Source: Porphyromonadaceae bacterium CG2_30_38_12
GTDB lineage: Bacteria > Bacteroidota > Bacteroidia > Bacteroidales > Paludibacteraceae
NCBI GenBank assembly: GCA_001873635.1
Contig: MNZK01000044.1
Span: forward strand, 1-37,336
Direction of reading: 5' to 3'
DNA length: 37,336 bases
Below the pieces are notes generated by a model. The model was given only the letters and a program-made list of their open reading frames with translations, was not told the origin of the DNA and searched no databases. This document shows positions 2,443 to 11,312 of the stretch, one piece after another. How positions within the stretch are numbered: the stretch's first letter is position 1; each line of letters begins with the position of its first letter. The position numbers and the translations under genes are program-made.

Positions 2443-4500
<2,058 letters not shown>

Positions 4501-4568
4501 TCATTTTGTAAGGGCAAAGATAAAACAATTCTTTGTCAAATTTGATACAGCTTTGTTCATTGAAATAC

Positions 4569-4609
4569 ATTTCCTACCATTTCGATGTTTTTCCTTTTAT
4601 TTCCTACCA
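4569..4609. repeat. Direct repeat ATTTCCTACCA x2 (30-bp period)
   Basis: Identical 11-mers at 4569-4579 and 4599-4609 in the ligA upstream intergenic region. Confidence 0.6.
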
Positions 4610-4854
4610 AAATGTAAGAATTTCGTATTCAATTAGTTAAAAATAAAATTGGCAAAATAATATCTTAGAACTAATATTGAAAATTAAGGTATTGCTATAG
4701 AGATACTTATTTTTTTTAGTTTTTCTGATTTATGTTCAGACTTCTATTACTCTCGTAATTTAGTTTGCTACTGTTTCATAATTTAGCATCAAATCTGTAC
4801 GAGGAAAATATGTTTCAGTTTGTTTTTAAAAGCAGACATAAAACTTTTACAGCA

Positions 4855-4986
4855 TTATTTGCTCGAGGAGTTTATAAAGAGTGTAAGCGTATGGTCAATT
4901 TTTACAATATTTTTGTGTTTCTCGAGTTCCTGAATGATTTTTCGTCCCTTTGCCGTGCTTACATCTTTGTGTGCTGTAACTTTCAT
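4855..4986 (-). CDS. Small hypothetical protein (MKVTAHKDVSTAKGRKIIQELEKHKNIVKI...)
   Basis: Protein-like charged/helical composition, directly downstream of the Nif11-like ORF on the same strand; internal Met at 4986 preferred over the tracked start at 5046. Confidence 0.5.
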   Translation of the reverse strand: MKVTAHKDVSTAKGRKIIQELEKHKNIVKIDHTLTLFINSSSK

Positions 4987-5074
4987 GATTGGTTGGCTTT
5001 TTTGTTGATCCAAATCTACAACGTTTTTTTGATAAAAACACTTCAATTACATCAAATGTACGTGGCGCTTATGA

Positions 5075-5314
5075 TTACCGAAACAACTGATACCATGCCT
5101 TTATTTCTTTTACGCACCCGGCTTGCTCGTAAGTTTGGCACTTAATTTCCAGTACATTAAAAGCATCTTCAATTTCAGCATGCGTAAAACCTATTTGTTG
5201 CGCCGCCATTCCTTGAAGTAATTCGGCTTGAAACTTAAATGTGTAACACGATTTCAGAAAATCATTATCCAAATCTACTTTTGATATAAAGTTTATTGCG
5301 TTTTGTAAGCTCAT
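5075..5314 (-). CDS. Nif11-like domain small protein
   Basis: MSLQNAINFISKVDLDNDFLKSCYTFKFQAELLQGMAAQQIGFTHAEIEDAF fits the Nif11 pattern: short helical protein, F-x(2)-K, then GF-(T/D)-x(2)-E. Internal Met at 5314 preferred. Confidence 0.6.
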   Translation of the reverse strand: MSLQNAINFISKVDLDNDFLKSCYTFKFQAELLQGMAAQQIGFTHAEIEDAFNVLEIKCQTYEQAGCVKEIKAWYQLFR

Positions 5315-5374
5315 TTTTGTTAAGTTTATAAGGTTTGTAAAGTTATTAATTAAAAGAATCATCAGCTTATTAAA

Positions 5375-5449
5375 TCATTTTTTCTCTTCGTCGCAAACAT
5401 CTGTTTCGCAGGTTGTGCATTCGCCACCACAAACCGTTGCCAATTCCAT
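5375..5449 (-). CDS. Cys-rich 24-aa peptide MELATVCGGECTTCETDVCDEEKK (not in ORF track)
   Basis: Translated by hand from the minus strand; ATG 5447-5449, TGA at 5375-5377. TACCTTTG -7-like box upstream; Nif11-like ORF follows on the same strand. Confidence 0.4.
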   Translation of the reverse strand: MELATVCGGECTTCETDVCDEEKK

Positions 5450-5493
5450 AGCAGATTCGTGGCTGTATAAATCCAATTTTTTGTGTATCAGCA

Positions 5494-5501
5494 CAAAGGT
5501 A
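5494..5501 (-). promoter_or_regulatory. -7 box (TACCTTTG) for the Cys-peptide/Nif11-like cluster
   Basis: CAAAGGTA on + strand, about 45 bp upstream of the Cys-peptide ATG. Confidence 0.45.
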
Positions 5502-5603
5502 AATATAGCTTTCGCAAGTAAATTAATTGAAAATCATTCTATTATAAAATCTGTGATTTTGATACGTGTTTATTCATCAAATACGTATTGTGTTTTATAA
5601 AGA

Positions 5604-5643
5604 TTTTGTGGAACTTTGTGTAAATACTTTGTGGAACTTCGTG
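5604..5643. repeat. Two degenerate direct repeats TTTTGTGGAACTTTGTG / CTTTGTGGAACTTCGTG
   Basis: Units at 5604-5620 and 5627-5643, 23-bp period. Confidence 0.7.
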
Positions 5644-5970
5644 TTATAGTTTTTTTTATTACATAAAAATTACAAAGAAGTCACAACATTCACAAAGTGA
5701 TAAATTTAAATACCGGTCAATTAAAACTGCTCTTTTCCAAAATTGCTTTCCAATTTTTTCTTCAATTTGCTATTGGTATTTATAAAGTAGTTAGCTGTAA
5801 ATTCAATAATTTATCTTTTGCGTAGGTATTCAGTTTCCTGAAAAAATAGCTGTTTGCTCGAATTGCTATAAATATGCGTGTTTAAACCTTCCATATTTGA
5901 ACCTATGTTTAACTTGTTTTTTCAAAGCCATAATACGATGAAATAAAGAAAAAATTACAAATGTACTGTT

Positions 5971-6012
5971 AAAAAAAATCCTGCTGAAAAATTAATCAGC
6001 TGGATTTTTTTG
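5971..6012 (-). terminator. Hairpin terminator downstream of pepT
   Basis: AATCC-t-GCTGA...TCAGC-t-GGATT stem flanked by an A-run and a T-run. Confidence 0.7.
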
Positions 6013-6038
6013 TGAACTATTTTAATCAGCGCATTATC

Positions 6039-7265
6039 TTATGCTTTATTACCCATTATTTCTGCAATTTTCACAATAATCATCATAGCTTTTTCCATCG
6101 ATTGCACTGGAACATATTCAAAACGTCCGTGGAAATTATGACCACCTGCAAAAATGTTTGGACAAGGAAGACCATCAAACGAAAGACGTGCGCCATCGGT
6201 GCCACCACGTATTGGTTTCACATCAGGTTTCACCCCAACAGCTTCCATGGCTTCGAATGCTAAATCTACAATATGCATCACGGGTTCTACTTTTTCACGC
6301 ATGTTGTAGTACTGGTCGCGCATTTCAACTGTGGCTGTGCCTGCGCCAAACTCAGCATTAATTTTATTTGCTAAATGTTCAATTTCTTTTTTTCGACGTT
6401 CAAACCTATCACGGTCGTGGTCGCGAACAATGTAGCTTAAGGACGATTGTTCTACGGTGCCTTCCATGCCTACCAAGTGATAAAAGCCTTCGTAGTCCTG
6501 GGTGTGCTCGGGGGTTTCGTGGCGTGGAAGCATGGACGCAAATTGATGTGCTACACGCATGGAATTGAGCATTTTGTGCTTGGCATATCCGGGATGAACA
6601 TTCATACCCCGAAAGGTGATTTTAGCTGCAGCTGCATTAAAGTTTTCATATTCGAGCTCGCCTATTTCGCCGCCATCCATGGTGTAAGCCCATTCAGCGC
6701 CAAACTTAGGCACATCGAAATGGTCGGCGCCTTGCCCAATTTCCTCATCGGGCGTGAAACCTACACGTATTTTACCGTGCTTAATTTCTGGATGTTCAAT
6801 TAAATATTCCATTGCCGAAACAATTTCAGTTAAGCCTGCTTTATCGTCGGCGCCTAACAAGGTTGTGCCATCTGTAACTACAATATCTTGTCCAACGTAT
6901 TGTCGTATTTCTGGAAATTTATTCGTTTCCAGTGTAATTTGCTTTTCTTCGTTGAGCAAAATATCATTGCCATCATAGTTTGTCACTACGCGCGGTTTCA
7001 CGTGTTTAGCAGTCATGTCGGGACTGGTATCCATGTGCGACACAAAGCCAATAGTCGGAATTGTTTTGTCCGTATTTGCTGGTAAAGTTGCCATTACGTA
7101 GCCATTGGAATCTAATTCAACATCCTGAAGTCCTATCGTTTTAAGTTCTTCTACTAAGTATTGAGCAAACACCATTTGTCCTGGTGTACTTGGTGTCATG
7201 TGAGTGTTTTCGTCCGATGTAGTTGTAAAACTCACGTATTTAAAAAATCGATCTACTATATTCAT
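6039..7265 (-). CDS. pepT: Peptidase T (tripeptidase, M20 family)
   Basis: [70 protein letters not shown]. Confidence 0.96.
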
Positions 7266-9037: not shown

Positions 9038-9364
9038 ATGATAAAATCAGAAGTGTTTGATAATGAGCTACAAAAATTAGCAAATTTTGCGAAAGTAATT
9101 TCACATCCCGCACGTTTAGCGATATTGAAGTATTTGGCACAAACCAAAACTTGTATTTCGGGAGATATATCCGACCATTTGCCCTTGAGTCGCACTACCG
9201 TTTCGCAGCATCTGAAAGAATTGCGCGACATGGGATTGATACATGGCGAAATAGAGGGAGTGAAGATTAATTATTGTTTATGTGGTAGCTCTATTAAAGA
9301 ACAAATCGCAAATTTCGATGCTTTTTTCAGCACTATTACTGTTCAGGAATTTAGTTGTAAATAA
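9038..9364 (+). CDS. arsR: ArsR-family transcriptional regulator
   Basis: Winged HTH: ISHPARLAILKYLAQTKTCISGDISDHLPLSRTTVSQHLKELRDMGLI. Confidence 0.9.
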   Translation: MIKSEVFDNELQKLANFAKVISHPARLAILKYLAQTKTCISGDISDHLPLSRTTVSQHLKELRDMGLIHGEIEGVKINYCLCGSSIKEQIANFDAFFSTITVQEFSCK

Positions 9365-9376
9365 AAACTCAATCTT

Positions 9377-9766
9377 ATGATTATAAAAGAAATAATAGCC
9401 CACGAGGCAAATGCATTACTCAACGAAGGTGCATTATTAGTAGATGTACGTGAAAAAGACGAGGTGTTTCAAAAATCGTTTCAGATAGATGGCGTTGAGA
9501 ACATGCCATACAGCACATTCGATGAAAATTACATCGATTTGCCCAAAAACCAAAAAATTGTTTTAGCATGTCATTTAGGCATACGAAGTTTACGTGTAGC
9601 TCAATTCCTTTTGAATCAAGGTTGGGACGAAGCTAAAATCTTTAGTTTGGATGGTGGAATAGATGCCTGGCAAGCTGCAGGTTTACCAGTTAAAAAAGCA
9701 CCACGCTCATTTACGTTTGCAAAACCTACTTCGTCTTGTGGCTGTGGGAGTGGTGGATGCTGCTAA
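9377..9766 (+). CDS. Rhodanese-domain protein with C-terminal Cys-rich tail
   Basis: Rhodanese core LVDVREKDEVFQKSF...IVLACHLGIRSLRVAQFLLNQGW...LDGGIDAWQAAGLPV; tail SSCGCGSGGCC. Confidence 0.9.
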   Translation: MIIKEIIAHEANALLNEGALLVDVREKDEVFQKSFQIDGVENMPYSTFDENYIDLPKNQKIVLACHLGIRSLRVAQFLLNQGWDEAKIFSLDGGIDAWQAAGLPVKKAPRSFTFAKPTSSCGCGSGGCC

Positions 9767-9805
9767 ACAAAATTTTAAATTAACTCATTTTTAAATTCAA
9801 ACTTT

Positions 9806-10231
9806 ATGAAAGTATTAATTCTTTGTACCGGAAACTCATGCCGTAGCCAAATGGCACACGGCTTTTTACAATCGTTCGACTCCACCATCACGGTGTGTTC
9901 GGCGGGCACACAAGCCTCAGGCAAACTCAACTCCAATGCGGTGGCAGCAATGAAAGACGCCGGCATTGACATTAGTTATCACCCCTCCGATTCCGTTGAG
10001 AAATACCTCAACGATGAATGGGATTATGTTATCACTGTTTGCGGTGGCGCAAACGAGGAATGCCCTGCATTTTTTGGAAAAGTAAAACATCGCCTACATA
10101 TTGGATACGACGATCCGAGCCATGTAGTGGGCACAGACGAATTTATCTGGAGCGAATTTATCCGTGTACGTGACGAAATTAAAGCAGGTTTCTATAAGTT
10201 TTATATGGAAGAAATTAAACCACAGTTATGA
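9806..10231 (+). CDS. arsC: Arsenate reductase, low-molecular-weight phosphatase type
   Basis: N-terminal P-loop [38 protein letters not shown]. Confidence 0.93.
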
Positions 10232-10250
10232 ATTTTCAAATCTTCAAATC

Positions 10251-11312
10251 ATGAGTTCCTCTTCAAATCTCTCTTTTCTCGATCGCTACCTCACACTGTG
10301 GATATTTTTAGCCATGTTTATTGGCGTTTTTTCGGGGTGGATGTTTCCTGCGGTTGCTCAGTTTTGGAATAGTATGTCTTCTGGCACTACAAATTTCCCA
10401 ATCGCCATAGGTCTAATTGTTATGATGTATCCACCATTGGCCAAAGTGAAGTATGAAGAGCTGGGCGAAGTATTCCGCAATACCAAAATTCTCACCTTAT
10501 CATTGGTTCAAAACTGGATTATCGGACCGATATTGATGTTTGCACTTGCCATTCTATTATTCAAGTTTTTTCCGGGCGAAAACAACTCCAATCTACCCTA
10601 TGTTTACGGAATTATAATGATTGGATTAGCTCGTTGTATTGCGATGGTTATTGTTTGGAACGATTTGGCAAAAGGCGACACGCAATATGCAGCTGGTTTA
10701 GTAGCATTTAATAGTATTTTTCAAGTGCTCTTTTTCTCCGTGTATGCTTGGTTTTTTATTGCCATTGCTCCTAATTGGTTTGGCATTCCTACAAGTGATG
10801 CTGTGTCAAAAATCACCATAGGGCAAATTGCCGAAAGTGTTTTCATTTACTTGGGAATTCCTTTTATTGCCGGTTTCCTTACACGTTTTATTCTTATCCG
10901 GGTGAAAAGCAAAGAATGGTATCACTCCAAATTAATTCCCAAAATATCACCCTTAACCCTTATTGCTTTACTTTTTACCATTTTGGTAATGTTTTCACTC
11001 AAAGGCGAATACATTGTAAAAATACCAATGGATGTCGTTTTGATAGCCGTTCCATTGCTTATTTATTTTGTCATCATGTTTATCGGTTCGTTTTTCATGA
11101 GCAAAAAAGCAGGCGCATCCTACGAACAATCAACAACGCTTTCATTTACTGCTGCCAGCAACAATTTTGAATTGGCAATTGCTGTTGCCATTGCCGTTTT
11201 TGGAATCAATTCGGGCGAAGCTTTTGCAGCAGTTATTGGTCCGTTGGTCGAAGTCCCTGTAATGATTGCATTGGTCAATTTGGCTTTTTGGTATAAGAAA
11301 AAGTGGTTTTAA
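10251..11312 (+). CDS. ACR3-family arsenite efflux transporter
   Basis: [67 protein letters not shown]; start at MSSSSN rather than tracked 10164. Confidence 0.95.

Follow-up and report, generated by a model that had tools for sequence, protein, structure and literature searches.

The Nif11 domain takes its name from nitrogen fixation and is most familiar as a RiPP leader. It forms the leader of many RiPP precursors and has been described as having no known function (PMC2887384). A nif11 gene of Bradyrhizobium carries a TGGCAC-N5-TTGC box and is downregulated when rpoN is mutated (PMC13207237), which lends independent support to the idea that Nif11 genes can be members of the nitrogen regulon. 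For Bacteroidales, Inoue et al. (2015) described a nifHDKENB cluster with a ferredoxin gene, two glnB-like genes, nifA, and mod genes, and inferred that nif was repeatedly lost within the order (PMC4356463). A term search of the text of that paper returned neither nifX nor acetyltransferase, and we found no description of a NifX-like/Nif11-like pair in Bacteroidales in the open-access literature.

The window, i.e., the whole 37,336-nucleotide stretch of DNA that was analyzed, belongs to a Paludibacter-like metagenome-assembled genome (MAG; 2.63 Mb, 82.6% complete, 118 contigs). An earlier, sequence-only reading described a compact cluster of three consecutive minus-strand ORFs, all of which we found in place, in the 1.5 kb that separate a peptidase T-like gene from ligA. 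The first encodes a 24-aa peptide, MELATVCGGECTTCETDVCDEEKK (minus strand, 5449-5375), which has the four Cys residues counted previously; its frame extends upstream to a GTG at 5494, for an ORF of 39 aa. The second, of 79 aa on the minus strand, starts with the ATG at 5314 and extends with its stop to 5075; an upstream in-frame ATG would give 95 aa, and the homologues begin at MSLQNA. The third, of 43 aa and also on the minus strand, runs from the ATG at 4986 to the stop at 4855. The features of the region are as follows.

6039..7265, minus strand: peptidase T-like gene (pepT), a flank outside the remnant (from the ORF list, identity read from sequence)
5494..5501, minus strand: TACCTTTG motif, unsupported as a promoter, at the breakpoint
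4891..5482, minus strand: remnant block, the sole pepT-ligA stretch clearly homologous to the nif-cluster edge of Paludibacter relatives, with both ends intragenic
5375..5482, minus strand: NifX-like C-terminal remnant of about 36 aa with the four-Cys tail CGGECTTCETDVC, aligning to residues 101-136 of full-length relatives
5075..5314, minus strand: intact gene for the 79-aa Nif11-like protein, 53 to 75% identical to 12 aligned relatives
4855..4986, minus strand: antitoxin N-terminal remnant, about 32 to 36 homologous aa of the 43-aa ORF, 78% identical to antitoxin residues 1-36
2443..4491, minus strand: ligA (NAD-dependent DNA ligase), a flank outside the remnant (from the ORF list, identity read from sequence)

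Elsewhere in the window, positions 9038-11312 appear by eye to hold an arsenic-resistance set, made up of an ArsR-like regulator, a rhodanese-like protein ending in CGCGSGGCC, an ArsC-like phosphatase, and an ACR3-like transporter.

A blastn alignment to the locus of the nearest relative, L038, showed 71% identity over 647 columns, covering window positions 5482-4891 (E = 3e-84), and the alignments to L040, L041, L042, and L039 agreed with it on the limits of this block. The upstream breakpoint falls inside the NifX-like gene and the downstream breakpoint inside the antitoxin gene, 592 bp apart. The flanks on either side, 5483-6038 (556 bp) and 4492-4890 (399 bp), had no convincing homology to the nif regions of the relatives. 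We did find a 27-bp match (93%) between window positions 5597-5622 (plus strand) and the nifA start of L098, but it lies on the opposite strand to the remnant and is probably a chance similarity in AT-rich DNA; the nifA starts of nearer relatives encode a different N-terminus. The -7-like box TACCTTTG proposed as the promoter of the three ORFs is indeed present, at 5501-5494. However, the 37-kb window holds 82 instances of the pattern TAnnTTTG (2.2 per kb), and at 17 to 22 bases upstream of TACCTTTG there is no TTTG. Because the motif is at chance frequency and has no TTTG at promoter spacing, it carries no weight as promoter evidence, and we rejected the promoter reading of what is a chance-level motif at the remnant junction.

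The Cys-rich peptide turned out not to be a separate small gene but the cut-off end of a gene that encodes a NifX-like protein of about 137 residues in the relatives. The window tail is 69 to 81% identical to the last ~36 residues of the full-length proteins, and the four tail Cys residues, invariant in the aligned relatives, are all kept. The likeness of the full-length proteins to the NifX/NafY/NifB C-terminal/MTH1175 family (PF02579, Nitro_FeMo-Co) lies in profile matches, fold matches, and their place in nif clusters. Their Pfam E values lay between 7e-6 and 2e-4, with scores at about the gathering threshold or under it, and profile matches included TM1290, MTH1175, and MJ0327. Foldseek with the predicted fold retrieved TM1290, MJ0327, and orange protein (1rdu, 2qtd, and 2wfb among the matches, at E of about 2-3e-5), and the NafY core more weakly. 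Unlike the described family, these NifX-like proteins add the C-terminal four-Cys tail and score near or below the Pfam gathering cutoff, and they did not match the NCBIfam nifX model. The window retains the tail alone, in a fragment that lacks the PF02579 domain, and no full NifX-like copy of this type was found elsewhere in the host assembly.

The third ORF had been counted as a member of the same cluster; it is instead a truncated antitoxin gene, unrelated to Nif11. Its full-length counterpart in L038, L040, and L041 encodes an antitoxin-like protein of about 70 aa and is followed by a gene for a ParE-like toxin (PF05016 ParE_toxin, E = 2.7e-4). The relatives thus carry a putative antitoxin and then a toxin, as in a ParE-type toxin-antitoxin pair, whereas the window has only the N-terminal half of the antitoxin and no toxin. 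Conservation of gene order was accordingly partial: the Cys tail followed by Nif11 is kept in the relatives, with the Cys part being the NifX-like end, but L038, L040, and L041 are the only loci with all three, the third there being the longer antitoxin gene.

The Nif11-like pattern seen in the 79-aa ORF was borne out at the family level. The window protein itself scored 17.5 bits against TIGR03798 (E = 0.0036), below the cutoff of that model, and was the only one of the 13 aligned copies with no Pfam Nif11 match at E of 0.1. All 12 aligned homologues matched Pfam Nif11 (PF07862), with scores for relatives of 26.0, 28.3, 27.9, 32.6, and 35.7 bits against a gathering cutoff of 23.8. The window copy is 67 to 75% identical to most of the aligned relatives, and it is by this identity that it belongs to the Nif11 family, its own scores being below the cutoffs. 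Over the N-terminal ~47 residues, the alignment with the family (PF07862/TIGR03798) is end to end, and the link to nitrogen fixers is shared as well, as the family name implies; in contrast to other members, the Bacteroidales proteins are single copy and carry one more helix at the C terminus, in which a CQTYEQA motif is conserved. The predicted structure is a five-helix protein (pLDDT 87), for which Foldseek returned no significant match. The window copy is changed at near-invariant residues, e.g., R20L and R67C, and retains the invariant Cys23 and Cys59.

The sequence-only reading had suggested, among other options, a minimal peptide-modification module, such as a Nif11-type RiPP precursor system. 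The use of the Nif11 domain as a leader in many RiPP precursors would favor this, as would the fact that the same profile, run over 396 genomes of the phylum, also retrieved several typical GG-leader Nif11 peptides. The matches in that survey were otherwise only weak (E of about 2e-4 to 7e-4) and came from one family, and while the GG-leader peptides among them support homology with the Nif11 leader family, they set the Bacteroidales proteins apart from it. Unlike the Nif11-type precursors (N11P, TIGR03798), the 79-aa protein and all of the aligned relatives stop at the last helix, with no GG site and no core peptide. There is one copy per genome, with no paralogue arrays, and no modification enzyme or peptidase-transporter gene is adjacent: the neighbors are nif, GNAT, and NifX-like genes in the relatives, and pepT and ligA in the window. 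With the GG site, core, paralogues, maturase, and transporter all missing, we rejected this reading, which is hardly credible for this locus.

Nif11-like homologues were found in 15 of the 35 other genomes of the genus (a count that leaves out a sixteenth, weak match in G006) and in 19 other Bacteroidales genomes. The G006 match (locus L017; E = 0.0017, with internal stops) was considered as a second remnant and rejected, since its flanks hold no trace of a NifX-like or antitoxin gene. Relatives with longer contigs have the genes in the order modABC, nifH, two glnB-like genes, nifD, nifK, nifE, nifN, nifB, a 2Fe-2S ferredoxin gene, and nifV; NCBIfam matches support the identification of nifA, nifB, nifD, nifV, and the ferredoxin gene. 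These clusters share with the published Bacteroidales cluster (PMC4356463) the nifH-glnB-glnB-DKEN-B-fdx core, nifA, and modABC, and the nif/anf spacing in G016 was about 49 kb, as reported for P. propionicigenes WB4 in the same paper. After nifV come a gene for a ~144-aa protein, in some cases ndk, and a gene for a ~109-aa protein, and this series converges on nifA-GNAT-NifX-like-Nif11-like. No strict sigma-54 pattern was found upstream of Paludibacter nifA or nifH. In the Paludibacter nif clusters examined, nifA and the NifX-like gene are separated by a gene for a GNAT acetyltransferase (L038:8849-9316 and equivalents). In those seen, a protein of ~144 to 149 aa is encoded beside nifV (L098:15987-16436 and equivalents); it looks HEPN-like by eye and had no Pfam or NCBIfam match at the thresholds used.

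The presence of the Nif11-like gene followed that of nitrogenase. Within the genus, where 16 of the 35 relatives have nitrogenase-family genes (PF00148), 14 genomes had both, 1 had the Nif11-like gene only, 2 had nif only, and 18 had neither (P = 7e-7). The sole Nif11-like carrier without PF00148, G011, is split into 930 contigs, one of which, the short L040, still extends into nifV. Among 392 other Bacteroidales genomes, the corresponding numbers were 19, 0, 11, and 362 (P = 6e-25), the carrier count leaving out weak matches in G265 and G367. At these 19 loci, a NifX-like gene with the Cys-rich tail lies directly upstream of the Nif11-like gene in 13 and a gene for a ~105-aa protein directly downstream in 13, with at least one of these two neighbors at each locus; in several, the same 3 kb also contain nifH, nifV, ferredoxin, or a nifA-like gene. 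Examples of the ~105-aa protein are L116:1762-2079, L114:1811-2125, and L119:1719-2060 (query orientation), which carry the pattern ...TYAYDDLVFAEHNxFILxF.... It had no significant Pfam or NCBIfam match, and its homologue in Paludibacter converges on the Nif11-like gene, making it a candidate new nif accessory protein.

The link to nitrogen fixation and the handling of metal clusters suggested earlier is real in the relatives, but it does not extend to the genome of the window, in which no nif genes were found. A profile search of the 82.6% complete assembly gave no nifH, nifDKEN, or nifB radical-SAM match, and the nifB model matched the host only once, over the NifX-like C-terminal part. The absence of nif genes could stem from the incompleteness of the MAG, with the cluster left unassembled; the truncated genes do not depend on completeness. 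We conclude that the locus is very probably a relic of the distal edge of a deleted Paludibacter nitrogen-fixation cluster. The ancestral order would have been nifA, GNAT acetyltransferase, NifX-like, Nif11-like, antitoxin, and ParE toxin, converging on nifV, fdx, and nifB. A deletion or rearrangement would have taken all that lay upstream of the last ~36 NifX-like codons and all that lay downstream of the first ~32 antitoxin codons, to leave the 592-bp block between pepT and ligA that the alignment shows.

Truncations of this kind could also be artifacts of joining unrelated pieces, in a chimeric assembly or a misbinned contig. The host genome is metagenome assembled, in 118 contigs, and in the relatives examined the 1.5 kb upstream of ligA contained no pepT, which is a weak point given that the window's own pepT lies just beyond 1.5 kb. 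However, breakpoints 592 bp apart within a 42-kb contig would need two misjoins, and the LigA of this contig groups with those of G004, which has the same antitoxin arrangement, and the nif-minus G021. We consider such an artifact highly improbable. In the LigA tree (a ligA homologue was present in 37 of the 40 genus genomes), the host stands beside the nif-plus G004 and the nif-minus G021 with moderate support (90/75); its branch is long, and the placement would fit a recent nif loss in a fast-evolving lineage. The host LigA branch measures 0.39, compared with a median of 0.09, which points to accelerated evolution of the lineage.

Since the activator, the NifX-like neighbor, and nitrogenase were not found in the assembly, the Nif11-like gene in the window is probably without a function now and at an early stage of decay. 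As a counterpoint, its ORF, wholly within the remnant block, remains open, and neutral evolution on its branch is not demonstrable: a codon model gave an omega of 0.15 on the window branch and 0.05 elsewhere, with P values of 0.08 against neutrality and 0.07 against the background, neither of them significant. The gene might instead have been kept for a new role as a reduced working unit, perhaps together with the detached four-Cys tail as a tiny metal-binding peptide and with a new promoter at the junction. An intact ORF in a genome where no nif genes were found, the retention of the four tail Cys along with Cys23 and Cys59 of Nif11, and a selection test compatible with constraint (omega 0.15) all speak for this. 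Retention is nonetheless very unlikely, as the case comes from a single genome, the promoter motif is at chance level, and conserved arginines have been lost. In addition, the neighboring antitoxin fragment is preserved to the same degree, in better agreement with recent loss than with retention.

If the locus is the relic of a lost nif cluster, it would be a physical remnant of the kind of loss inferred by Inoue et al. (PMC4356463). The puzzling trio of small ORFs would then be the scar of that event, directly supporting the published account of nif loss for the patchy distribution of nitrogen fixation in Bacteroidales. In the intact relatives, linkage and fold suggest that the NifX-like protein most likely carries or stores a FeMo-cofactor precursor, while its four-Cys tail perhaps binds Fe-S or metal. 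From linkage, fold, and co-occurrence, the small helical Nif11-like protein may assist this carrier step. More tentatively, and with less than even confidence, we propose that the NifX-like protein with the four-Cys tail, the free-standing Nif11, and the ~105-aa protein might constitute an undescribed Bacteroidales nitrogenase accessory module, in which Nif11 would be a dedicated FeMo-cofactor trafficking partner, ancestral to the Nif11 RiPP leaders. Such a module would span many Bacteroidales families and give Nif11 a testable role beside a cofactor carrier. In the Bacteroidales surveyed, Nif11 is single copy, free-standing, tied to nitrogenase, and usually located directly after the NifX-like carrier gene, which offers a clean genomic handle on this family.
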